Shown: piece by piece, positions 3,680 through 40,844 of the stretch
How the letters are laid out: each line of letters begins with the position of its first letter
Position numbering within the stretch: the first letter of the stretch is position 1
Origin: Thermoplasmata archaeon
GTDB taxonomy: Archaea; Thermoplasmatota; Thermoplasmata; Methanomassiliicoccales; Methanomethylophilaceae
Reading direction: 5' to 3'
NCBI GenBank assembly: GCA_015063165.1
Contig: SUSZ01000014.1
Span: 1-44,989 of the forward strand
Length of the DNA stretch: 44,989 nt
Position numbers and translations under genes: made by a program
Notes under the pieces: model-generated
What the model saw: only the letters and a program-made list of their open reading frames with translations
Databases searched by the model: none
Told to the model about the DNA's origin: nothing

Positions 3680-6600
3680 TCACCTGTCCGAAAGATCCTC
3701 CAATATCTCCTCGGCTTCGGAGTACATCCTATCGAGAAACTCTTTGTAATCGTCCGAAGCGTCCCACAGCCTGCGCTTTATGGCTTCGTTCAGCGTCTCG
3801 AGGATGTTCATCATGGAATACGGGTTGACATCCTCCATCCATTCGCGGACCATGTCGTCCTTGAGATAGGTGTCCACCAGGCTTTCGTACATCCACCCCT
3901 CGACGATATCGGACGTCGCTCCCCAAGCCATCGTATACTCTGTGATCTTGGCCATCTCCGCCGCGCCCTGGTACCCGTGCTCCATCAGGCCCTTGTTGAA
4001 CTTCGGGTTCGTGACCTTGGACCTGAACAGGAAGCGCAGCTCCTCCTGGGTGCTGCGGATCTTGACCTTCTTGGGATCGGAATTGTCCCCCATATAGGTG
4101 GCCGCATCCTCTCTCCCGTAGGTGCGGACGAAGGCGTTCATCCCTCCCAGGTACTGGTACACGTCGTCTATGTCCAGCATGTCGAATTCTCTCGAAGGAG
4201 CGTTCTTGATCGTGGCCGTGACCTTGCTGAAACGCCTGACGAACTCCTTCTTCATCGGGACTCCGTATCTTCCCTTCGAATAGCCGAAGCTGCTGAGGCC
4301 CGCATACATGTCGGCCAGGTCCTTCGTCTCGTCCCATCTGCCGGATTCTATCAGCCTTCCCACGCCGTTCCCGTAGGTTCCGAGGGCTTCCCCGAATATC
4401 CTGACGGAGTTCCTTCTCCGAGCCTCGTCGTGGCCCAGCCCGGCGATCATGTCGTCCCTGATGTCCTTCCGGAGGTTGGCGGCCAAGGCATTCTCCTCGT
4501 CGGTCTCGTCCAGATCGGCTACCATCTGTATGGCCTGGTCGAGAAGGTCTATTGTGGCGGGGAAAGTGTCCCTGAACAGCCCTGTGATGTTCAGCGTGAC
4601 GTCCACGCGGGGTCTGCCCAGCTCCTTCACCGGCACTACCTCCAGGTCGACGACCTGTCCTCCGGCCTTGGACCACACCGGCTTCACACCCAGCAGCCAG
4701 AGGACGTAAGCGGCGTCGTCTCCGCCGGTGGTCATCATGTCCGTGGCCCAGATCACGATCCCGATCTCCCTCGGATACTCGCCCTTGTCGGAAACATACC
4801 TCTCAATCATCTGGTCGGCCATCTTCCTGCCGATCTCCCATGACGTCTTAGTGGATACCTGGTCCGGATCCAGCGAATAGAAGTTCCTTCCCATGGGCAG
4901 AATGTCGGCGTTCCCGCGGGTGGGGGAGCCGGAAGGCCCTGGTATGACGTACCTGCCGTCGGCTCCGTCCATCATGTGGTCGAGCTCGTACGTCATCCTC
5001 CGCATGTTGGGGACTATGTAGTCGCAGGTGAACTTGATGGATCTGGCCAGCTCGTCGGATACGGAGCCGTACCTCTCCCGGACGTATCCTATCGTCCTCT
5101 CCGCTGAATAGTCTAGCTCGGTCCTCATCGACTCGATCAGAGCACGCTCCTCGGAGTCGATCCTGCTCACTATGGACGAATTGAGCTCCCCGTCCTTCCC
5201 GAACTGGGACGGATTGTCTATGGCGTCCTGCAGGTCCACCCCCATATTGGCTGCGAAAGCGTCCCTCAGAGACCTGATCTGGCCGTTGTCCAGCCTTGTC
5301 AGGGAGTACACCATCTCGTCGAAATGGTGGCCCGCCGGCGGCCTGCCGATGATGTGGAGGTCGGACCTGACCAGAACCTCCTCTATCTCCTCCAGATATT
5401 CGTGCAGAGGGATGATGTACCTCTCGAACCCCTCCGGCCCAGGGTCGTCGTCCCCGTCTATGCCTAGATCCTTGAGGACGTTGTTCCTCTTGACAGCATC
5501 ATAGATCTGCGTTACCAGGCCCTCCTTCATCGCCTTGGACGAGCCGCCTTGGAATTTGAAATAGTCCTGCAGCTGGACGCCGATCTCCTGGATATAGCCG
5601 TACGAATCCCCTCTGGCCATGGTCGGCGGCATGTGGCCTATCAGGACAGACTCGGACCTCCTCTTGGCCTGAACCCCCTCGCCGGGATCGTTCACGGTGT
5701 ACGGGTACAGGTTAGGGACAGCGTCCAGGACGTAGTCCGGGTTGCATTTGTTGGAAAGGCCCACGTTCAATCCAGGAAGCCATTCCAGGGTGCCATGGGT
5801 GCCCATGTGGAATATCATGTCCGCCTTGAAGACGTCCCTTATCCACCAGTAGTAGGCGTTGTACTGGTGCTGAGTGAACAGAAGGGGGTCGTGGACGTTC
5901 TGCTCCATGTTCTCCGCCCAGCCCCTCATGGGCTGATAGCAGACGAACACGTTGCCCTTGAGCAGTCCAGGGATTATGATCTTCCCGCGATCGGTCATGA
6001 TCTCGCCTGCCGGAGTCCCCCAGGAGGATTCGGTCATGGAACGGTCCCATTCCGGGATCCGGGAGTACTGCGCTTCGTAGTCCTTCTTCTCGACCAGGTC
6101 CGCGGCCTTCTCGACGATGGATGCCGTGGACTGGTTGTCCAGGTCGTTCGTGATGTTGTCCAGGATCTCCTCCATGAGCGCGCGTCCGTCGACCGGACAG
6201 TCCGTCACCTTGTATCCTAGATCCTTCATCCTGACAAGTATGTCCGATACGCTCTCGGTGGTGTCCAGACCTGCCGCGGCGCCGATCATGCCAGAGTTGG
6301 GCCGGGACTGCCACATCATTATCGCGACCCTCCTCTCGGATACGGGCTTCCTCCTGATGCTCCCCCAGGCTCTGGCCAGACGGCACAGGTGGTCCGTTCT
6401 TTCCGGCAGTGGCAGGGATTTCTTTGGATTGTCCTTCTCGGAATACGATATGGGGACGCCCAGTACGTTCCCGTCAAGCTCAGGATATATGACGTTGGAC
6501 ATGAAATCGGCCTTGTTCATGCCGACCTTCTCGGTCTCGAAGTCCAGGAAGGTCCCATAGTAGGCCATGGCGAAGATCACCGGAACGTCGATGAGCCTGC

Positions 6601-7435
6601 GGAAGCAGCTCTCCTCGTCGATATTGGGGATGTTGCCGTCCGCACGGTTGATGTTGGCATAGCCGGTGAGAGAGATTATGACGTCCACGACAGGGCGGCC
6701 GTCCAGCTTGAAGTAAGTGCGGAACAGCTTCTCGGTCCCTCCTGGCTCCCTCATGATGTCGAAGGAGCAGGCGATCGGAACGGTTTGCATCCCCATGGCC
6801 TGGAGACGCTCGATGAGGTAGTCTATGGACCCGGTGTTCCCGTAGACCAGCTGCGCGTTGGGGAAGATAAGCCCGACTGTTATCCTGTCCGGATCCAGCG
6901 AACGGAGATGGTCCTGAGGCTCGAAGCGCTCCTGCCCGTTCAGATAGAGGGAATGAAGAGGATGCGTGACAGGAGGGCCCGGTTCCCTGTCAGTATAGCC
7001 GAAATGCCATGCCAACCACCATATGAATAGAAAATCATTCTCGGGAGACTTGTAGAGATTGTATCTTTCCATGTCCTTGAGCTCGGTCTCCGAGCCGGAG
7101 AACAGGTCGGAGGTCATCATATCCACGTCCAGGCTGCCGGAGACCGGAGCCACGAACGCTTTCGTCCTTCTGAGGACTTCCGAGTAGCGGTCGAACCTCT
7201 TGAACTTCCACGGATCCCCCATGCACCTGATGTACACGATGTCGGATCCCATGGTGCGATCGCACAGCTCCGCGTAGACACTGGGGTCGGACTCGCATTC
7301 CTCTTTGGTGTACCCCTTGTAATCTATCCTGATTCCGAGCTCCTTCTCGACTTCGGAGCAAGATTCTCCGAACTGCTTCGGAGGCGTGATCATCACGGAG
7401 AGGAATGTCAGCTTGATGGTCTTCCCTTCGGACAT
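3680..7435 (-). CDS. cobN: Cobaltochelatase CobN / Mg-chelatase H family protein
   Basis: This 1251-residue protein belongs to the CobN/BchH large chelatase subunit family, which inserts cobalt (or magnesium) into a tetrapyrrole with ATP-driven partner subunits. The clearest motif is MIFHMGTHGTLEWLPG near residues 535-550, the conserved histidine-rich core of the family. Further conserved blocks are MMWQSRPNSGMIG near residue 370 and IVIWATDMMTTGGDD near residue 895. The length is normal. Transcription is divergent from a CbiZ gene, with an AT-rich box at about 7465-7474 as the likely TATA. No CobS/CobT or ChlI/ChlD partner lies in this window. CobN in an anaerobic archaeon could serve corrinoid synthesis or another metal-tetrapyrrole, and the neighbours favour corrinoids. 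Confidence 0.88.
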   Translation of the reverse strand: MSEGKTIKLTFLSVMITPPKQFGESCSEVEKELGIRIDYKGYTKEECESDPSVYAELCDRTMGSDIVYIRCMGDPWKFKRFDRYSEVLRRTKAFVAPVSGSLDVDMMTSDLFSGSETELKDMERYNLYKSPENDFLFIWWLAWHFGYTDREPGPPVTHPLHSLYLNGQERFEPQDHLRSLDPDRITVGLIFPNAQLVYGNTGSIDYLIERLQAMGMQTVPIACSFDIMREPGGTEKLFRTYFKLDGRPVVDVIISLTGYANINRADGNIPNIDEESCFRRLIDVPVIFAMAYYGTFLDFETEKVGMNKADFMSNVIYPELDGNVLGVPISYSEKDNPKKSLPLPERTDHLCRLARAWGSIRRKPVSERRVAIMMWQSRPNSGMIGAAAGLDTTESVSDILVRMKDLGYKVTDCPVDGRALMEEILDNITNDLDNQSTASIVEKAADLVEKKDYEAQYSRIPEWDRSMTESSWGTPAGEIMTDRGKIIIPGLLKGNVFVCYQPMRGWAENMEQNVHDPLLFTQHQYNAYYWWIRDVFKADMIFHMGTHGTLEWLPGLNVGLSNKCNPDYVLDAVPNLYPYTVNDPGEGVQAKRRSESVLIGHMPPTMARGDSYGYIQEIGVQLQDYFKFQGGSSKAMKEGLVTQIYDAVKRNNVLKDLGIDGDDDPGPEGFERYIIPLHEYLEEIEEVLVRSDLHIIGRPPAGHHFDEMVYSLTRLDNGQIRSLRDAFAANMGVDLQDAIDNPSQFGKDGELNSSIVSRIDSEERALIESMRTELDYSAERTIGYVRERYGSVSDELARSIKFTCDYIVPNMRRMTYELDHMMDGADGRYVIPGPSGSPTRGNADILPMGRNFYSLDPDQVSTKTSWEIGRKMADQMIERYVSDKGEYPREIGIVIWATDMMTTGGDDAAYVLWLLGVKPVWSKAGGQVVDLEVVPVKELGRPRVDVTLNITGLFRDTFPATIDLLDQAIQMVADLDETDEENALAANLRKDIRDDMIAGLGHDEARRRNSVRIFGEALGTYGNGVGRLIESGRWDETKDLADMYAGLSSFGYSKGRYGVPMKKEFVRRFSKVTATIKNAPSREFDMLDIDDVYQYLGGMNAFVRTYGREDAATYMGDNSDPKKVKIRSTQEELRFLFRSKVTNPKFNKGLMEHGYQGAAEMAKITEYTMAWGATSDIVEGWMYESLVDTYLKDDMVREWMEDVNPYSMMNILETLNEAIKRRLWDASDDYKEFLDRMYSEAEEILEDLSDR

Positions 7436-7515
7436 GTCGCAACCCTATCGTGCGTTAAACCTGTATTAAAACTAAAAAACGTTTTCAATAGTCGGTAGAC
7501 TATACATCCAGCATA

Positions 7516-8727
7516 ATGGCCTTTAACCATGCGGCGATGGTCCGAATGCTGCAAAATCGAGGGATCTGGATGGATTTCACCTGGGAAGACATACTCTGCG
7601 AAGAGCCCATAGACGAAAGGCGCAAGGTAGCGGACATGTGCTGCGACATAGAGGTCTTCAGGCAGTGCAGGTCCCTCATTCTGATCCCGCATTCAGAGGT
7701 AAGGGTCCTGACCGGAGCGAGCCGTGAGCACTCGTTCGTCCAGAACCCCCAGGCCATAACGAACAACAGCAGCATAGGCTCGCGCGTGGAGATGAGCCTG
7801 ATGGGGAAGAAGCTCAACGTCAACGACGCCTACACCGATGAGATGCAGCGCCGCATCGGGCTGGATGCCGAGCGCACAGTCGCTTTCGGAACGGCCGCGC
7901 ACATGGATAACGCCGCCGTCACGAACCTCTTATCGAAAGGAGGCGTGAAGGTCTCGGCAGCGGTCACGGGCGGGATTAGAGGGAACGGAGGAAGGGCGGG
8001 GGATCCGGCCTCCTTCGATGAGGCGAAGAGATATGCGGAGAGACCTGGCACTATAGTGATACTTCTGGCGATAGACGCCGACATCCCTGACGGCACCATG
8101 TTCCAGGCGATGCTCACCGCGACCCAGAGCAAGAGCTGCGTGATCCAGGAGCTGATGGCCAAGAGCCTCTACAGCAACCGCGTGGCCACTGGCTCCGGAA
8201 CCGACCAGGTGGCGGTGATCTGCAGGACAGGCTCCGGAAAGGAGATAACCGACTGCGGAGCGGCTTCTGATGTCGGGATCGCGATAGCCAGATGCGTCCG
8301 CGAATCGCTGTTCAAGACCTTCGACCTCCAGTCCGGCATGGACATGGAAGCGCAGAGCGACCCGTTCGTGATGCTATCTCGGTTCGGCATGACGCCGTCT
8401 TCCATCCATAACGAGATACGCTTCCCGTGCACCATGGCTTCGCTCATCCAGGCAGAAGCGGAGCTACATAAGGACAAGAAGGTCGCCGCAGGGGTGTCGG
8501 CCGTTCTGAGGATAGCCGACGACGTCAACCTGGGGATCATGGAGCCCGCGAAGGGAGTCGAGATCGCTTCCAGGATGATCATGGGCACGCTCCTGGAACC
8601 CGAAGACGTGGACCCTGTCATAAGGAAGGTACTGACGTACGAAGAGACCGTGCCCGGGCTTCTGAGCATGACCATGGCGCTGCTGTTACGGAAGCGCGCG
8701 CTCGAGATCATGGAGGCGGGACAATGA
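7516..8727 (+). CDS. cbiZ: Adenosylcobinamide amidohydrolase CbiZ
   Basis: CbiZ removes the aminopropanol side chain of salvaged adenosylcobinamide so that corrinoids can be rebuilt with the cell's own lower ligand. The protein has 403 residues. The family core runs from about residue 150: VSAAVTGGIRGNGGRAGD, GTIVILLAIDADIPDG, an ATQSK helix, then VATGSGTDQVAVI near residue 225. The N-terminal part (LILIPHSEVRVLTGAS, then ITNNSSIGSRVEM) also fits. Its start is unsure. ATG 7516 is the longest, but a TATA-like ACTATAC at 7499-7505 would place transcription near 7528, favouring ATG 7537. It overlaps the second cbiZ-like gene by 4 bases (ATGA). Confidence 0.8.
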   Translation: MAFNHAAMVRMLQNRGIWMDFTWEDILCEEPIDERRKVADMCCDIEVFRQCRSLILIPHSEVRVLTGASREHSFVQNPQAITNNSSIGSRVEMSLMGKKLNVNDAYTDEMQRRIGLDAERTVAFGTAAHMDNAAVTNLLSKGGVKVSAAVTGGIRGNGGRAGDPASFDEAKRYAERPGTIVILLAIDADIPDGTMFQAMLTATQSKSCVIQELMAKSLYSNRVATGSGTDQVAVICRTGSGKEITDCGAASDVGIAIARCVRESLFKTFDLQSGMDMEAQSDPFVMLSRFGMTPSSIHNEIRFPCTMASLIQAEAELHKDKKVAAGVSAVLRIADDVNLGIMEPAKGVEIASRMIMGTLLEPEDVDPVIRKVLTYEETVPGLLSMTMALLLRKRALEIMEAGQ

Positions 8728-9671
8728 ACGTCACCAGGCTCGGAAGATATCGGCTCGTAGAGAGCGGTTCGTCCCTGAGGATAGAGCTCGGGAACGAGCA
8801 CAAGGTGCTCCTCACCTATCCGGGAGACGGCGAATACGACAGCGTGGAGAGCATCGGATTCGGCGACTGCGGCTGCGACCTTGTCGTCTCCGATAATACA
8901 AACGCGTTGAGCTGCGGCTTCTCCGAATTGTCTTTCGGAAGCACCTGGGGGGCAGCGATAGCCGTCGCCGACCTGCGCTCTGGGATCTGCAGAGCAGGAG
9001 CCGAGGGGTGCGAAGGAGAGGGGGAGGTGTCGCTCATCCTTCTGTTGGGCCCGGATTTCTCCATCTCCTCGATGGCAAGAGCTGGTATAACCTCGGTCGA
9101 GGCGATAACAGCGGTGATCCAGGACCTCAAGCTCAGGGACGGGGAGGGAAGATGCGGGTCCGGCACGAAGAACCTGAGAGTGGCCATCGTATCAGACAAG
9201 AAGTCCGAGATCCACCTCAGAGGAACGGGAAAACATTCCAAGATGGGCGAGATCATAGGCAGGACCGTATACGATGCGGTGATGGACTCCGCGATCAAGA
9301 ACGGCGTACAGCGCCCCGGCCCGGTGATGGCGGGGCTACTCTCCAGAGGATTCGACGAAGAGAGGATCAGGTCGATGCTCGGAATGACCGCTGAAGAGCT
9401 CGAGACGTTCGTCCGCAAGATGGATGACGACAACGTGAAAGCATGCTTCTCGTCGATCTCCCACCTGGAGGACGAGATCTCGTGGGGGCTTATCCCCGAA
9501 TCGGCAGGAAACGAGATCGGAAGGAGGGCCATAGCCGCCGTCCTGGGGGTCCAGCCATCCGAAGGCAATAGCCTCTCGGAATCGTTCCTGTTCGCTCTGA
9601 TCGAATATGGAAGCCGAAGTCATCCGCTGCATTTCACGACGGTCTGCGTGAGTCTTAAAGCTTCACTTTGA
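8724..9671 (+). CDS. Second CbiZ-family protein (diverged paralogue)
   Basis: This 315-residue product shares the CbiZ C-terminal core with its upstream neighbour: a strand LILLLGPDFS, the ARAGITSVEAITAVIQDL helix, then a GSGTKNLRVAIV strand and GTGKHSKMGEIIGRTVYDAV. The last block resembles the GTxTKxGExIGRAV region of CbiZ even more closely than the first gene does. The N-terminal half is shorter, and the C-terminal 100 residues (MLGMTAEELETF onward) are not recognised. The two genes overlap by 4 bases and are co-transcribed. They may form a heteromer or act on different corrinoids; both ideas are inference. Confidence 0.65.
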   Translation: MNVTRLGRYRLVESGSSLRIELGNEHKVLLTYPGDGEYDSVESIGFGDCGCDLVVSDNTNALSCGFSELSFGSTWGAAIAVADLRSGICRAGAEGCEGEGEVSLILLLGPDFSISSMARAGITSVEAITAVIQDLKLRDGEGRCGSGTKNLRVAIVSDKKSEIHLRGTGKHSKMGEIIGRTVYDAVMDSAIKNGVQRPGPVMAGLLSRGFDEERIRSMLGMTAEELETFVRKMDDDNVKACFSSISHLEDEISWGLIPESAGNEIGRRAIAAVLGVQPSEGNSLSESFLFALIEYGSRSHPLHFTTVCVSLKASL

Positions 9672-34056: not shown

Positions 34057-34341
34057 GTGCCTCAAGAGGACGAAAACGTCAACCGCGCCAGATTCTTCGA
34101 GTCCAAGCATGCTGTAGGGCTGCTCATGTTCATCGCTGAGCACGAGAGCTGCACCAAGCTGGACATCTTCCAGGGATATTCCGAAGAGCCTTCCGCATCG
34201 GCGATGCTGAGAAGGCTGGAAGATGAGGAGCTCATCTCATCCGAAATGCCCGGGAAGGGCCGCATGAGGTTCGTACTGACGGAGAAGGGGGAGCTGGTGT
34301 ACGGGCACCTCAGGTCCATAGGCCGTCTCCTCCGATCATGA
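34057..34341 (+). CDS. Winged-helix DNA-binding protein
   Basis: This 94-residue protein is a single winged-helix domain: SKHAVGLLMFIAEHESCTKL (helix 1-2), PSASAMLRRLEDEELIS (recognition helix) and MPGKGRMRFVLTEKGELVYGH (wing and last helix). It resembles MarR/PadR-like archaeal regulators. It begins with GTG at 34057; no better start or Shine-Dalgarno is visible. It overlaps the convergent formate/nitrite-type channel gene by 6 bases, and control of that gene is possible but unproven. Confidence 0.75.
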   Translation: MPQEDENVNRARFFESKHAVGLLMFIAEHESCTKLDIFQGYSEEPSASAMLRRLEDEELISSEMPGKGRMRFVLTEKGELVYGHLRSIGRLLRS

Positions 34342-34947
34342 CGCCGTCGGCTTCTCCTCGTACATGTACTTCGCGCAGAACGGGATCAGGATTCCGCCTA
34401 TCGCGTTCCCTACGATGACCACTATTATGAAAGCCAGGGAATCCAGCGTGTAGACTCCTGCGGAGCAGAAGTAGAACATGTCGGCTATGCTGTGCTCGAA
34501 CCCAGCCAAGATGAACACGGGGACGCAGATGAAGGTCGCCAGGGGGCCCTTGCCCTTCTTGAAAGTGTCCGCGGCGATGAACATCAGGATACCGCACAGC
34601 ATCCCTTTGAAAAGCACAGGGAAGAACAGGAAGCTCTCGAGCTTCTTTTCCACCAGCACCTCCGCGCCGGACAAAGGCATCATGATGCCTAGGATCAGAG
34701 TCCCGATGAAGTTCCCGACTATGATGACCAGCAGGTCCACGATGTAGGAAGGCGGATTATCGACCGCGTACCCCACCTTTCCGGTGTAAAGGTCGAGCTT
34801 ATAGGTCAGGATCGTGAATAGACCGATGGCAAAAAGGATCGCTCCGACCCACTTGACCTCGCATCCTATGTAGACGCAGCCGCCGATGCCAATGCACATG
34901 CCGGCAAGGATGGAACGCAAAAGACACTTGGAGTAATGGCCTTCCAT
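34336..34947 (-). CDS. Formate/nitrite transporter (FNT) family channel, short form
   Basis: This membrane protein of 203 residues has about six spans and FNT features: LLRSILAGMCIGIGG at the start, FTILTYKLDLYTGKVGY after the second span, and ILAGFEHSIADMFYF, the segment holding the conserved pore histidine. Typical FNT proteins have 250-285 residues, so this one is short, mainly in loops and termini. Formate, nitrite or hydrosulfide are family substrates. A CATATAAAA box (34978-34986, minus strand) lies about 35 bases before the ATG. A GGACAA/TTGTCC palindrome lies just beyond it. Confidence 0.82.
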   Translation of the reverse strand: MEGHYSKCLLRSILAGMCIGIGGCVYIGCEVKWVGAILFAIGLFTILTYKLDLYTGKVGYAVDNPPSYIVDLLVIIVGNFIGTLILGIMMPLSGAEVLVEKKLESFLFFPVLFKGMLCGILMFIAADTFKKGKGPLATFICVPVFILAGFEHSIADMFYFCSAGVYTLDSLAFIIVVIVGNAIGGILIPFCAKYMYEEKPTAS

Positions 34948-36727: not shown

Positions 36728-37243
36728 ATGAAAGGAAACCTGAACACCCTGAAGAAGATCTGCCATTACGCATCCGCGGTCATGCTCGTAGGAGCCGTCG
36801 TTCTGGCCGCGCTCATCGGATTCACGCTCGTCTTGTCCGCAGGAACCGCGATGGGGGACGGAGGCTTCTCCGACCTGCTCTCGACTTGGGTGGGAGCGGA
36901 CAACGTGACCGCTGCCTCCGGAATCGCCGCCGTCGTCGAGATGCTGATGATCCTGTCCCTCGGGCTCGTCACCGTGGTGGTCATCTACAGGTTCATGAAG
37001 GCCATCGAGAGGGAGCACAGCCCGTTCAACACCGAGAACGTGGATGCGATGAGGTTCCTTTCGAAGACGTACCTGATCTTCTCAGTCCTGTTCGCCGTGG
37101 TAGACTGGATAGCCCGCGAGAGCCTGACGATAGCCATGTTCCTCTTCTTCGGATCGATCCTGGTCGGCGTGGTGATCTACTGCCTCGCGTTGGCGTTCCG
37201 CTACGGAAGCGTCCTGCAGAAGGAATCCGACGAGACGCTGTGA
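36728..37243 (+). CDS. DUF2975-type membrane protein
   Basis: This 171-residue protein has four hydrophobic spans (for example MLVGAVVLAALIGFTLVL and AAVVEMLMILSLGLVTVVV). Between the second and third comes the family motif EREHSPFNTENVDAMRFLSK. DUF2975 proteins in bacteria are nearly always paired with a small Xre regulator, as here. Its role is unknown; the pair resembles a membrane sensor or bacteriocin-type module. Confidence 0.8.
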   Translation: MKGNLNTLKKICHYASAVMLVGAVVLAALIGFTLVLSAGTAMGDGGFSDLLSTWVGADNVTAASGIAAVVEMLMILSLGLVTVVVIYRFMKAIEREHSPFNTENVDAMRFLSKTYLIFSVLFAVVDWIARESLTIAMFLFFGSILVGVVIYCLALAFRYGSVLQKESDETL

Positions 37244-37250
37244 GGCGGAC

Positions 37251-37487
37251 ATGACGATAATCCTCAGGCTGGATAGGGTGATGGCGGACAGGAAGATGTC
37301 CCTCAATCAGCTCGCTGAAAAAGTCGGAATATCGAACGTCAACCTTTCCAACATAAAGACCGGCAAGATAAGCGCCATCAGGTTCTCCACTCTGAACGGC
37401 ATTTGCAAGGCTCTGGGATGCCAGCCGGGAGACATCCTGGAGTATGTCGAGGACGAGGAGGGGGAAGACCCCCCTTCAAGCCTCTGA
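37251..37487 (+). CDS. Xre-family transcription regulator (YozG-like)
   Basis: This 78-residue helix-turn-helix protein lies 7 bases after the DUF2975 gene. RLDRVMADRKMSLNQLAEKVGISNVNLSNIKTGK is the HTH and recognition helix, and FSTLNGICKALGCQPGDILEY the conserved C-terminal helices of the YozG group. It probably controls the paired membrane gene. Its 3' end overlaps the convergent symporter gene by 12 bases. Confidence 0.88.
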   Translation: MTIILRLDRVMADRKMSLNQLAEKVGISNVNLSNIKTGKISAIRFSTLNGICKALGCQPGDILEYVEDEEGEDPPSSL

Positions 37488-38441
37488 AGCCAATTCCTTC
37501 TCCATCCTCTTCCTTCCGAACAGGACGGAGTCCATGAACGCGACCCAGAGGACCTCTACGACTATGGAGGTCGCGATGGCCACCATCGCCACGGGAGCGA
37601 GCCCGGTGGGTCCGAGGACGGCCATGCAGGTCGCAATCGCTATTCCCTTGTTCTTGTAGGACGTCATCAGGATGTCGGTGACCCTCTGGGACCAGTGGAT
37701 CCCTGCCTTCTTCTCGACGACCTCCACGCCGATCCCGAGCCCGAAGGACCTGAGGGCGGCGATCAGCAGGAACGCTATGAAGATCCAGGCGTCTCCGGCG
37801 AACTTGGTGGAACCGACGGAGAGCCACACCAGGAAGAAGATGCAGCAGTTCAGGAACACCGCCATGTAGTCCTTGTTCATCTTAACCTTGGTCAGGAGCC
37901 TGGACACCACCAGCGGGACGGCTATGAGCTCGATGACAGTGACGACCACGTTGGTCATGTCGACGAGCTCACCGAGGGCGAGCCAGACGATGAACGGGAT
38001 CCAAGCCAGAGCGATCACGTAGACCACTATGGTGCCTCTCATCGCATGCTCCATGTCCCCGTTGAGGATGTACGAGAGGGGACCTACGGAAGCGGCGAAA
38101 GGCGTAGCGGCGATGAACACCAGACCCATGGCCTGAGCGCCGAACTCGGTGTCCTTCAGAAGGAAATACCCGGCGAGAGGGATGATCGAAGAAACGACGA
38201 GACCCAGGATCACAGCCCTGAGAACGGATCTCTTGTGTGTCAGAGGATTCAGGTTCTCGTAAGGAATCCTGGAAAGGGACACGGTCAGCATCACTGCGAG
38301 AGTGATGACTGTCAGATTCGAACGCACGTCGGCGGTCAGCACCCCTCCAGGGAACACGCCTCCGAAATTCGTCGCCAGCGCGACGACCAGAGCCAGTGTC
38401 ATCATGAATGCGCTGCTCTTGAGGAGCGTTATCGCGGACAT
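37476..38441 (-). CDS. Bile acid:sodium symporter (BASS) family transporter
   Basis: This 321-residue membrane protein has nine or ten spans and BASS-family features: VGPLSYILNGD with FIAATPFAASVG in the first half, and MTSYKNKGIAIATCMAVLGPTG in the second, matching the crossing-helix motifs. Relatives move bile acids, pantothenate, pyruvate or other organic anions with sodium, and the substrate here is unknown. I start at ATG 38441; the frame reads 29 codons further upstream through AT-rich DNA. GGGGTG precedes the start. A box ATTTTAAAT at about 38466-38474 is the likely TATA. Confidence 0.82.
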   Translation of the reverse strand: MSAITLLKSSAFMMTLALVVALATNFGGVFPGGVLTADVRSNLTVITLAVMLTVSLSRIPYENLNPLTHKRSVLRAVILGLVVSSIIPLAGYFLLKDTEFGAQAMGLVFIAATPFAASVGPLSYILNGDMEHAMRGTIVVYVIALAWIPFIVWLALGELVDMTNVVVTVIELIAVPLVVSRLLTKVKMNKDYMAVFLNCCIFFLVWLSVGSTKFAGDAWIFIAFLLIAALRSFGLGIGVEVVEKKAGIHWSQRVTDILMTSYKNKGIAIATCMAVLGPTGLAPVAMVAIATSIVVEVLWVAFMDSVLFGRKRMEKELASEA

Positions 38442-38517
38442 GGGCACCCCATTAATGTTTTTCATTTTAAATTTAACGATAATCATTAAAAATTTAATTT
38501 TCTTCAATATTGCACCG

Positions 38518-38524
38518 TTAAATA
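38518..38524 (+). promoter_or_regulatory. TATA box of the menA-ubiE-HAD operon
   Basis: TTAAATA is centred 26 bases before ATG 38547, predicting a leaderless message for the operon. Confidence 0.6.
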
Positions 38525-38546
38525 CCAAAATACTATGGGGTAACGC

Positions 38547-39467
38547 ATGGCAGGTGTAAAGCCGGTTAAAGCCGGATGGTACAACGTCTTCAGACCGTGG
38601 ACACTACACGGAGCGGTAGTGCCAGTTCTGATCGGAGGAGCCGTGGCCTACCACGACGGGAGCTTTGACTTGCTCATGTTCCTCCTGGTGCTGGCCGGAG
38701 GCATACTTCTGCAGTCGGCGGCGAACATCCTCAACACCTACGGCGACTTCAAGAAGGGAACCGACACGGTCGAGAACGAGACCAGGTCCCCCGAGCTCGT
38801 CACCGGCGCCCTTAAGCCGAAGTCCGTATTGAAAGCAGGGATCGCATGCATCGGAATCACCTGCCTGATCGGTCTGGTGTTCATCTGGCACGTGGGATGG
38901 CCCATCCTGATCTACGGGATCCTGGGCGTCATAGGCGCGGGAACCTACACCATATGCGGCTCATACAAGTACCTCGGACTGGGCCAGATCAGCGTGTTCG
39001 TCATGATGGGGCTTCTGATGCCTCTCGGAACATACTGCGTGATGACGGGAGAGATGTTCTCCTGGGAGGTGTTCCTCCTGTCCCTGCCGAACGCTTTCAT
39101 GATCACGGCTGTCCTGTCCGGGAACGAGATGCGCGACTACTACGAGGACAAGAAAGCGGGAGTCGGAACGCTCTCGCAGCACATGTCCTACGAGAGCGGG
39201 ATGAAGCTGTACCTGTTCGAGAACATCGTAGCATTCCCGATCCTCTTGATTCTGATAACTTCAGGAAGCGCACCTTTATGCACTGCGCTTGCTTTCCTGA
39301 CGCTGTACGACCTGTACAAGCTCGTGGAGAACAGCAGGAAAGCCCCGACGGACCCGCATTGCAGCTTCATGCTCGTGCCTCTGGCATTCAAGATGAACTG
39401 GCATTTCGGCGTGCTTCTGGTGATCGGATACCTGATTCAGTACTACGTGCTGCCCCTGGTGATGTGA
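38547..39467 (+). CDS. menA: UbiA-family prenyltransferase, MenA-like
   Basis: This 306-residue membrane enzyme attaches a polyprenyl chain to an aromatic ring. It has the two Mg-pyrophosphate motifs of the MenA branch: NILNTYGDFKKGTD near residues 60-73 and GNEMRDYYEDKKAGVGTLS near 190-208. About eight or nine spans surround them. The 1-base gap to a UbiE/MenG methyltransferase suggests synthesis of a quinone or a similar redox lipid. Whether the ring is 1,4-dihydroxynaphthoate, or the phenazine of methanophenazine in a methanogen, cannot be told from the sequence. Confidence 0.83.
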   Translation: MAGVKPVKAGWYNVFRPWTLHGAVVPVLIGGAVAYHDGSFDLLMFLLVLAGGILLQSAANILNTYGDFKKGTDTVENETRSPELVTGALKPKSVLKAGIACIGITCLIGLVFIWHVGWPILIYGILGVIGAGTYTICGSYKYLGLGQISVFVMMGLLMPLGTYCVMTGEMFSWEVFLLSLPNAFMITAVLSGNEMRDYYEDKKAGVGTLSQHMSYESGMKLYLFENIVAFPILLILITSGSAPLCTALAFLTLYDLYKLVENSRKAPTDPHCSFMLVPLAFKMNWHFGVLLVIGYLIQYYVLPLVM

Positions 39468-39468
39468 G

Positions 39469-40218
39469 ATGGCCGAGGAAGAGCTCAAGAAAGGAAACCA
39501 GTTCGAAGGCAAAGAAGAGTACATCAAGGATGTCTTCACCGAGATCGCCGACTACTACGACGAGATGAACGACATCATGTCCATGGGAATGGTCCAGGGC
39601 TGGCACAAGTTCATGATGAAGAAGGCCGGCGACATCTCCGGGAAGAAATGTCTAGACGTGGGCACCGGGACAGGGGAGATCGCGTTCCATGTCGCCAGGA
39701 CGGCCGGAGCCGGATCCACCGTCATCGGAGTGGACATCACCCCCAAGATGCTCGAGCTCGCCGAGAAGAAGGAGAAGGAGCTCGACCTGCCCGTCAAGAT
39801 AGACTGGCGCGTGGGAGACGCCCTTAAGCTCGAGTTCGAGGACGACACCTTCAACCTCGTCACATCAGGATACATGCTCAGGAACGTCACCGACATCCTC
39901 CAGGCCGTCAGCGAGATGCACAGGGTGCTGGCTCCCGGTGGGAAAGTGGTCGTCGCAGAGCTCTCCAAGCCCAAGAACGCCGTCGTCCGCTTCTTCTACA
40001 ACATCTACATGAAGAGGGTCAAGAGGTACGGCCGCAAGTACGACAAGGGCAAGTCCATCGACGGAAGGCAGTCCGCGTATCAATGGCTCACCACCTCGAT
40101 AGAGGGATTCCCCTACGGCGAGGACATGGTCAAGATCTTCAGAAAAGCCGGTTTCGAGGACGCCAGGTACTTCGTGAAGTCCTTCGGGGCCGTCAACATC
40201 TATGTGGGCACGAAATGA
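39469..40218 (+). CDS. ubiE: UbiE/MenG-type methyltransferase
   Basis: This SAM-dependent C-methyltransferase of 249 residues matches UbiE/MenG. KEEYIKDVFTEIADYYDEMN and MSMGMVQGWHKFM open the protein. Motif I LDVGTGTGEIAFHVA lies near residues 63-77, and SGYMLRNVTDILQAVSEMHRVLAPGG near 135-160. In quinone synthesis this enzyme methylates the prenylated ring. Its position directly after MenA supports a shared pathway. It overlaps the HAD gene by 4 bases (ATGA). Confidence 0.85.
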   Translation: MAEEELKKGNQFEGKEEYIKDVFTEIADYYDEMNDIMSMGMVQGWHKFMMKKAGDISGKKCLDVGTGTGEIAFHVARTAGAGSTVIGVDITPKMLELAEKKEKELDLPVKIDWRVGDALKLEFEDDTFNLVTSGYMLRNVTDILQAVSEMHRVLAPGGKVVVAELSKPKNAVVRFFYNIYMKRVKRYGRKYDKGKSIDGRQSAYQWLTTSIEGFPYGEDMVKIFRKAGFEDARYFVKSFGAVNIYVGTK

Positions 40219-40844
40219 AGGATTACGAGCTGTACATCTTCGATTTCGACAACACGATGTTCGACACCAGCATCGGGCTGGCCGCGATCCTGAACAACGC
40301 CTTCCCGCCAGTAGGGCTGCAATACGACGAGTCGATGTTCCAGGACCTCGTCGGGATGACGATGGAGCAGATCTTCGACAGGTTCGTAGGGGACGAGTCG
40401 AAGCGCGAGATATTCTACGAGAAGTTCAGAGAGGTCGTCCACTCGGACGCCTATCTCAAAGGAGCGCCGTTCCCGGATACGAAGGAGACCTTCGAGGAGC
40501 TCATGAGACGCGGGAAGCACATAGCCATAGCTTCGGGGAAGTTCAGATTCAAGATACTGAAGCTCATGGAGGTCCATGGGATGGCCCATCTCATCCCGGA
40601 GGTCGTCATCGGCTACCACGACACCGAGAGGCACAAGCCCGACCCGGACCCCATTCTGAAGGCTATGTCCTATTTCGATCTCCCTGAAGAGACTATAATC
40701 TACGTCGGCGACAGCCCTCACGACGCCCTCGCCGCGAGGAACGCCGGAGTCGATTCGGTCATCGTGAACAGGCACAACGGCCTCACGCCCGACGGAATCG
40801 AATGCACCTGGGAGATCAGCTCTCTGAAGGAGCTCCTCGTCTGA
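40215..40844 (+). CDS. HAD-superfamily phosphatase (menA-ubiE operon)
   Basis: This 209-residue haloacid-dehalogenase enzyme has motif I IFDFDNTMFDT near residues 8-18 and the motif III lysine in RHKPDPDPI. Motif IV is YVGDSPHDALAARNAG. A helical cap lies between motifs I and II, as in phosphoglycolate phosphatases. It is co-transcribed with menA-ubiE, so a phosphatase step on a polyprenyl or aromatic phosphate of the carrier pathway is one option. Generic house-cleaning phosphatase is another. ATG 40215 overlaps the ubiE stop. Confidence 0.82.
   Translation: MKDYELYIFDFDNTMFDTSIGLAAILNNAFPPVGLQYDESMFQDLVGMTMEQIFDRFVGDESKREIFYEKFREVVHSDAYLKGAPFPDTKETFEELMRRGKHIAIASGKFRFKILKLMEVHGMAHLIPEVVIGYHDTERHKPDPDPILKAMSYFDLPEETIIYVGDSPHDALAARNAGVDSVIVNRHNGLTPDGIECTWEISSLKELLV

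Follow-up and report, generated by a model that had tools for sequence, protein, structure and literature searches.

What ring do the MenA-type prenyltransferase and UbiE-type methyltransferase of certain gut methanogens act on, and where does that ring come from? The question is raised by a locus in a stretch of 44,989 nucleotides (the window), which makes up contig G000:C25 of a 67-contig, 2.28 Mb genome of the order Methanomassiliicoccales that is 99.86% complete. The features discussed here are collected in Table 1.

Table 1. Features of the window locus and of the sister-family fusion locus, with the basis for each assignment
Feature	Position	Strand	Basis or remark
DUF2975 membrane protein	36728..37243	+	PF11188 2.2e-6; travels with the HTH gene
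Cro/C1-type HTH protein, 78 aa	37251..37487	+	PF13443 2.5e-24
BASS/SBF-family transporter, 321 aa, candidate ring-precursor importer	37476..38441	-	PF01758 7e-8; BASS fold
Divergent promoter region, transporter/menA	38442..38546		AT-rich; TATA-like stretches toward both genes, by eye
Dyad TTTAACGATAATCATTAAA, 19 bases	38472..38490		Possible operator for both transcripts
menA-type UbiA prenyltransferase, 306 aa	38547..39467	+	PF01040 2.9e-33; TIGR00751
ubiE/menG-type C-methyltransferase, 249 aa	39469..40218	+	PF01209 9.4e-61; TIGR01934
HAD_2 phosphatase, 209 aa	40215..40844	+	PF13419 3.8e-37; not conserved with menA-ubiE
ABC permease::MqnP-like prenyltransferase fusion	L181:2119-3777; also L188-L195	- (L181)	Pfam, NCBIfam

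The gene pair and its organism

The menA and ubiE genes are separated by a single base, and the ATG of the HAD phosphatase gene overlaps the ubiE stop by 4 bases. A preliminary description had reported this pair with the phosphatase behind it, and the gene coordinates together with the Pfam and NCBIfam matches bear it out. The pairing of menA with ubiE is far above chance, the two genes being adjacent in all 20 same-family relatives for which loci of up to 18 kb were compared. UbiE orthologs of at least 57% identity are present in 79 of the 147 genomes of the order, all of them in the window's family (f1). The phosphatase gene, which the preliminary description had counted as part of the operon, does not travel with the pair: besides the window, 3 of the 20 wide loci (L034, L035 and L036) have it 3' of ubiE, as do certain close relatives of the window within a set of 71 named loci. 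The phosphatase was considered as a pathway enzyme or member of the module and rejected, because too few relatives have the gene.

The nearest named ortholog of the window's transporter (96% identity; L099) comes from a Candidatus Methanomethylophilaceae of sheep rumen. This places the organism in a methanogen family, in agreement with the earlier view that it is likely a methanogen. Elsewhere in the window, positions 3680-9671 hold a CobN-type chelatase gene and two adjacent CbiZ (adenosylcobinamide amidohydrolase) genes, likely a corrinoid cluster, and positions 34336-34947 hold a gene of the formate/nitrite transporter family (PF01226).

A divergent transporter gene beside menA

The gene that diverges from menA, with a promoter region common to both, lies just outside the part of the window considered in the preliminary description and was overlooked there. 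By family match and modelled fold its product is a member of the BASS/SBF family. PF01758 is matched by 24 of 26 members of this transporter group, and the structural model of the window protein (pLDDT 88.2, pTM 0.87) is matched best by ASBT_NM (8oyf, TM 0.72/0.74) and related BASS structures; 27 PDB matches at E 0.001 or better are of the bile-acid-transporter type by title. The window transporter has its fold and Pfam family in common with ASBT_NM, for which a pantoate-bound structure exists, but solved BASS members share just 12-19% identity with it, and it scores 19.4 bits against the TIGR00841 cut-off of 326.3. BASS proteins carry many anions, which counts against assigning the import of one particular compound, 1,4-dihydroxy-2-naphthoate (DHNA), to this protein.

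The transporter gene stands beside menA in 17 of the 20 wide loci (up to 18 kb) and elsewhere in the genome in the remaining three (G119, G092 and G184). Among the 71 named loci with a transporter, menA lies within 600 bp in 47 (42 divergent; 5 co-directional, gaps 29-37 bp) and farther off in 8, giving 55 of 71 with menA. The 16 transporter loci in which menA is absent include five from bacteria, one from genome G160 and three that are cut close by contig ends. A functional link would be expected to leave such a change of orientation, from divergent to co-directional, in which the two genes stay in contact. In eight genomes belonging to the window's genus the transporter is retained away from menA, and the neighbours of the relocated genes, inspected as a clue to substrate, include no constant partner. 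A second, diverged transporter copy (55% identity) was seen in one genome (G106; L073:7935-8900, minus strand) besides the menA-linked one. No relatives were found in a plasmid collection searched for them, and a literature search, mostly outside subscription journals, turned up no recognised report tying the transporter to menA.

The dyad in the shared promoter region is a possible operator for the transporter and menA transcripts. Its consensus, TTTATCGATTATCGATAAA, is matched with at most 5 mismatches in 16 of 39 divergent intergenic regions, all from near relatives of the window, and in 5 of 1950 mononucleotide shuffles, which preserve base content only. Five of the 20 wide loci have the HTH gene adjoining the transporter gene; in two of the 17 counted as having the transporter beside menA (L043 and L045), the HTH and DUF2975 genes lie in between. 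The HTH protein, with its DUF2975 neighbour, is a putative regulator, and it could act at the dyad.

The prenyltransferase and the methyltransferase

Both enzymes belong to quinone-pathway families, although neither reaches the narrower models. The window MenA passes the NCBIfam model TIGR00751 (menA) narrowly, at 106.1 bits against a cut-off of 102.15, and falls below the cut-off of every narrower DHNA-prenyltransferase model (the PRK06080 models); UbiE passes TIGR01934 with 214.8 against 158.35, fails all narrower NCBIfam models, and is by far the strongest among 18 PF01209 matches in its own genome. MenA retains both Asp motifs. Its closest solved structure by sequence and fold is UBIAD1, of the UBIAD1/MenA branch of the UbiA family: the MenA model (pLDDT 85.3) matches UBIAD1 best (TM 0.76/0.83), ahead of UbiA homologs, but the two share 23% identity and the acceptor-side stretch of the window MenA is unlike that of bacterial MenA. 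In an alignment from which class homologs L025 and L030-L032 were set aside, the GPLRGMQ stretch of the compared bacterial MenA proteins is missing from the family's MenA proteins, which have RSPELVTG there instead. Because of this replacement, the acceptor of MenA may not be DHNA.

Two genes of the window genome exceed the Pfam cut-off for the UbiA family, menA and one on contig 17, which is taken to be a putative lipid enzyme. Another UbiA-family type adjoins UbiE in two genomes of sister family f3 (L200 and L201; G216 and G215), and a similar type occurs in G125 (L183), which belongs to the window's family but has no menA-ubiE pair.

The menA-ubiE pair and the idea that it serves a carrier are not new. 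For three Methanomassiliicoccales, ubiA and ubiE already appear in Borrel 2014 (PMC4153887) under the label 'liposoluble electron transporter synthesis', with the nature of that transporter left undetermined. These are the same two genes, and in Ca. M. alvus and Ca. M. intestinalis their accessions follow one another; the passages of Borrel 2014 that bear on them contain no transporter gene, no salvage reading and no account of gain and loss across genomes.

Joint presence and absence, and the search for ring-forming genes

The transporter and UbiE were counted across family f1 (102 of the 147 genomes of the order), a strong ortholog being defined by at least 57% identity for UbiE and at least 51% for the transporter, with weaker paralogs uncounted. 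Both are present in 75 of the 102 genomes, UbiE without the transporter in 4, the transporter without UbiE in 2, and neither in 21 (Fisher p 9e-16, uncorrected for kinship). The six genomes with one of the two (UbiE in G224, G225, G231 and G280; the transporter in G268 and G297) are 66-89% complete, and in G268 a menA truncated by the contig end sits beside the transporter. The same pattern is seen within genera: both genes occur in the same 12 genomes of g4 and neither in 5, both occur in one genome of g7 and neither in 5, and the 99%-complete g3 genome G018 has no UbiE and no transporter. Transporter orthologs of at least 51% identity, found in 77 of the 102 f1 genomes, occur outside f1 only in G160, a genome of another family, which combines this strong ortholog with adjacent genes for a MenA and a UbiE that are distantly related (25% and 32% identity).

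A search for ring-forming men and mqn genes, which the preliminary description had proposed, was negative for MenD and for MqnA/D. MenD (PF16582) is over the cut-off in none of the 147 genomes, the window's own included, with 2 weak matches below it; in a control set of 14 genomes it matched in 7 and was over the cut-off in 6. MqnA/D (PF02621) is likewise over the cut-off in none of the 147, with 3 weak matches below, and was over the cut-off in 4 of the 14 control genomes. Judged by these two markers, the order therefore appears to lack both of the known routes by which the naphthoate ring is made.

The Fpo-like complex

The preliminary description had argued that these methanogens need a membrane carrier for their Fpo-like complex. 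That argument is weakened by the distribution of the complex. FpoH (PF00146) occurs in 136 of the 147 genomes. Of the 21 f1 genomes that have no ortholog of UbiE or of the transporter, 17 have FpoH, and the remaining four are 60-69% complete. Because genomes without the pair keep Fpo, the product of the menA-ubiE locus is no general requirement for the complex, and Fpo as an obligate partner of the pair was rejected. A loss of the FpoD quinone site in genomes without the pair was also considered and rejected: the His and Tyr of FpoD, which we take to be the residues lining the quinone site by comparison with complex I, are kept in all 20 genomes examined, a set that includes seven f1 genomes lacking the pair. 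G018, which is without the pair, retains both residues and has a single UbiA-family gene. The Fpo-like complex may still use a lipid carrier; as presented in PMC10804542, direct contact of Fpo-like subunits with HdrD is favoured.

A permease-prenyltransferase fusion in sister families

Seven genomes of family f3 and one of family f2 (G218, G188, G213, G196, G298, G212, G209 and G214) carry a UbiA-family open reading frame of 553-626 aa. In G218 a single protein combines an ABC permease half (PF00528, 2e-28) with a half that is a prenyltransferase (PF01040, 1.1e-53). The latter passes TIGR01475 with 276.3 against 180.8 and scores 234-250 bits with the MqnP-specific models, whose cut-offs of 375-430 are unmet; the fusions of G188 and G298 give the same picture. 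The eight loci have a common order of substrate-binding protein (SsuA/NMT1 type), ABC ATPase, fusion (shorter in the L194 gene call) and UbiD-family protein, with UbiE interposed in six loci by gene calls and in G212 by search. The UbiD-family protein scores above the cut-off of TIGR03701 (menaquinone biosynthesis decarboxylase) in both loci tested, with 616.4 and 629.3 against 495.9.

With TIGR01475 and TIGR03701 passed, this operon resembles the late futalosine enzymes MqnP and MqnL, whose roles, with that of a methyltransferase, are predicted in PMC4746308. It differs in that the MqnP-like half is fused to an ABC permease and stays under the MqnP-specific cut-offs, and in that MqnA/D is absent. 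From its gene content the operon looks like the late futalosine half joined to a complete importer. Because one protein is half importer and half prenyltransferase, these cells would import what they prenylate, probably 1,4-dihydroxy-6-naphthoate. The sister families thus appear to meet the same need as the window's family by another machine.

Relatives of the transporter in termite-gut betaproteobacteria

Five relatives of the transporter, at 50-60% identity, occur in records of termite-gut betaproteobacteria (L152, L155, L156, L157 and L159), four of them named Zoogloeaceae or Azoarcus. They stand amid ordinary bacterial genes, which makes contig contamination unlikely; no menA lies alongside and no recognised quinone gene is among their neighbours. 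In a quick tree of 78 rows, the bacterial transporters nest within the Methanoplasma of termites, where they form two groups of three and two; the branch that encloses them has an SH-aLRT of 90. This placement suggests a transfer of the transporter gene from methanogens to betaproteobacteria in termite guts.

Four of the five betaproteobacterial genomes were searched for the enzymes. MenA is matched at E 2.3e-21 or better in three of them, and all three proteins pass TIGR00751; two of them pass NF004750, a narrower DHNA polyprenyltransferase model, of which the third falls just short. The fourth genome, G316, gave no MenA match. MenD and MqnA/D are matched at E 0.001 in none of the four genomes, for which completeness is not given. 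Here again the transporter would seem to accompany a MenA with no known source of the ring, and by family the substrate of that MenA would be DHNA.

A possible salvage pathway and its alternatives

Our reading of the window locus, to which we give a probability of about 0.55, is that it is a three-gene quinone-salvage module. The BASS-family transporter would import a soluble ring-bearing acid, probably DHNA, from neighbouring bacteria; MenA would attach the imported ring to a polyprenyl tail; and UbiE would put a methyl group on the ring, yielding a menaquinone-like lipid that might be used as a membrane electron carrier. The cell itself would form no ring by a known pathway. DHNA is the likely substrate of the transporter and MenA. 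The reading is favoured by the linkage of transporter and menA, by the joint presence or absence of transporter and UbiE, by the dyad between the two promoters and by the lack of MenD and MqnA/D over the cut-off. Two independent lines, the betaproteobacteria with transporter and MenA and the sister-family fusion operon, support salvage. The late Men half alone is also found in Prevotella melaninogenica (PMC5738691) and Lactiplantibacillus plantarum (PMC10746273), which as described there have menA and ubiE only and use exogenous DHNA from their neighbours, L. plantarum having menaquinones after growth with it (PMC10746273). In contrast to those DHNA-using bacteria, the present organisms are methanogenic archaea with a linked candidate transporter. 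The preliminary description had the operon making a prenylated carrier, either methanophenazine or a new quinone. What stands of this is that the pair is real in methanogens and likely makes a prenylated, methylated ring compound; the reading was sensible but too narrow, and the transporter was missed.

A wider proposal, which we hold tentatively and put slightly below an even chance, is that the order scavenges naphthoquinone rings by two unrelated machines. One would be the BASS transporter with MenA-UbiE, acting on DHNA in Methanomethylophilaceae, and the other the sister-family ABC permease::MqnP-type fusion, prenylating 1,4-dihydroxy-6-naphthoate upon entry; the BASS gene would later have passed alone to termite-gut betaproteobacteria that have MenA and no known ring source.

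It is unlikely, but deserves weight, that the ring is made de novo by a pathway of a new kind, with MenA and UbiE finishing a new quinone and the transporter exporting or balancing something else, such as a toxic quinone intermediate. The divergence of MenA from bacterial MenA in the acceptor-side stretch would fit such a pathway, as would the open nature of the carrier in Borrel 2014; such a pathway could also operate where MenD and MqnA/D, the markers covered, are missing. It would have to be one that has not been seen, however, and it explains neither the sister-family fusion of importer and prenyltransferase nor why bacteria whose MenA is ordinary, and in which MenD and MqnA/D were not found, should have the transporter.

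A small chance attaches to the idea that the pair makes a prenylated, methylated compound with no part in respiration, such as an antioxidant, a membrane modifier or a signal. Fpo does persist in genomes without the pair and no dedicated quinol-using partner came to light in this analysis, but the quinone-pathway families of both enzymes, and the quinone-site His and Tyr kept by the Fpo-like complex in 20 of 20 genomes, speak against it.

Slighter still is the chance that the transporter gene serves bile resistance and adjoins a quinone operon by coincidence. Its presence and absence track those of UbiE, with joint absences within genera g3, g4 and g7, and its orthologs occur in genomes from the rumen and the termite gut, which are places without vertebrate bile. 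The bile reading derives from PMC7883539, where a cluster of bile acid:sodium symporters (IPR002657), which may be this gene or its paralog, is reported as enriched in host-associated Methanomassiliicoccales and interpreted as bile tolerance.

Methanophenazine, named as a possible product in the preliminary description, is very improbable. It is not known to carry a ring methyl, so UbiE would have no role in its synthesis, and we know of no dedicated genes for its ring. It is described as an ether-linked phenazine with a C25 tail (PMC3017947), and the ISO4-H5 genome paper argues that it is absent there (PMC5011839), against a proposal from expression data that UbiA and UbiE homologs take part in its synthesis in Methanosarcina barkeri (PMC6315138).

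Implications

How menaquinone precursors enter cells is an open problem in this literature: PMC4746308 states that DHNA could serve organisms with menA and menG only, and that annotation or prediction of the transport genes is still to be done, and according to PMC5738691 transporters for menaquinone precursors had not been described. The window locus offers a concrete candidate for the missing transporter, and the sister families offer a second, in the form of a transporter-enzyme fusion. If the salvage reading is true, these would be the first importers assigned to menaquinone precursors. The finding bears on the membrane carrier of the order, if there is one, and sets the Fpo-like complex apart from the question of the quinone. 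Methanogens of the rumen, the gut and the termite would then depend on their bacterial neighbours for quinone, a link that is testable.
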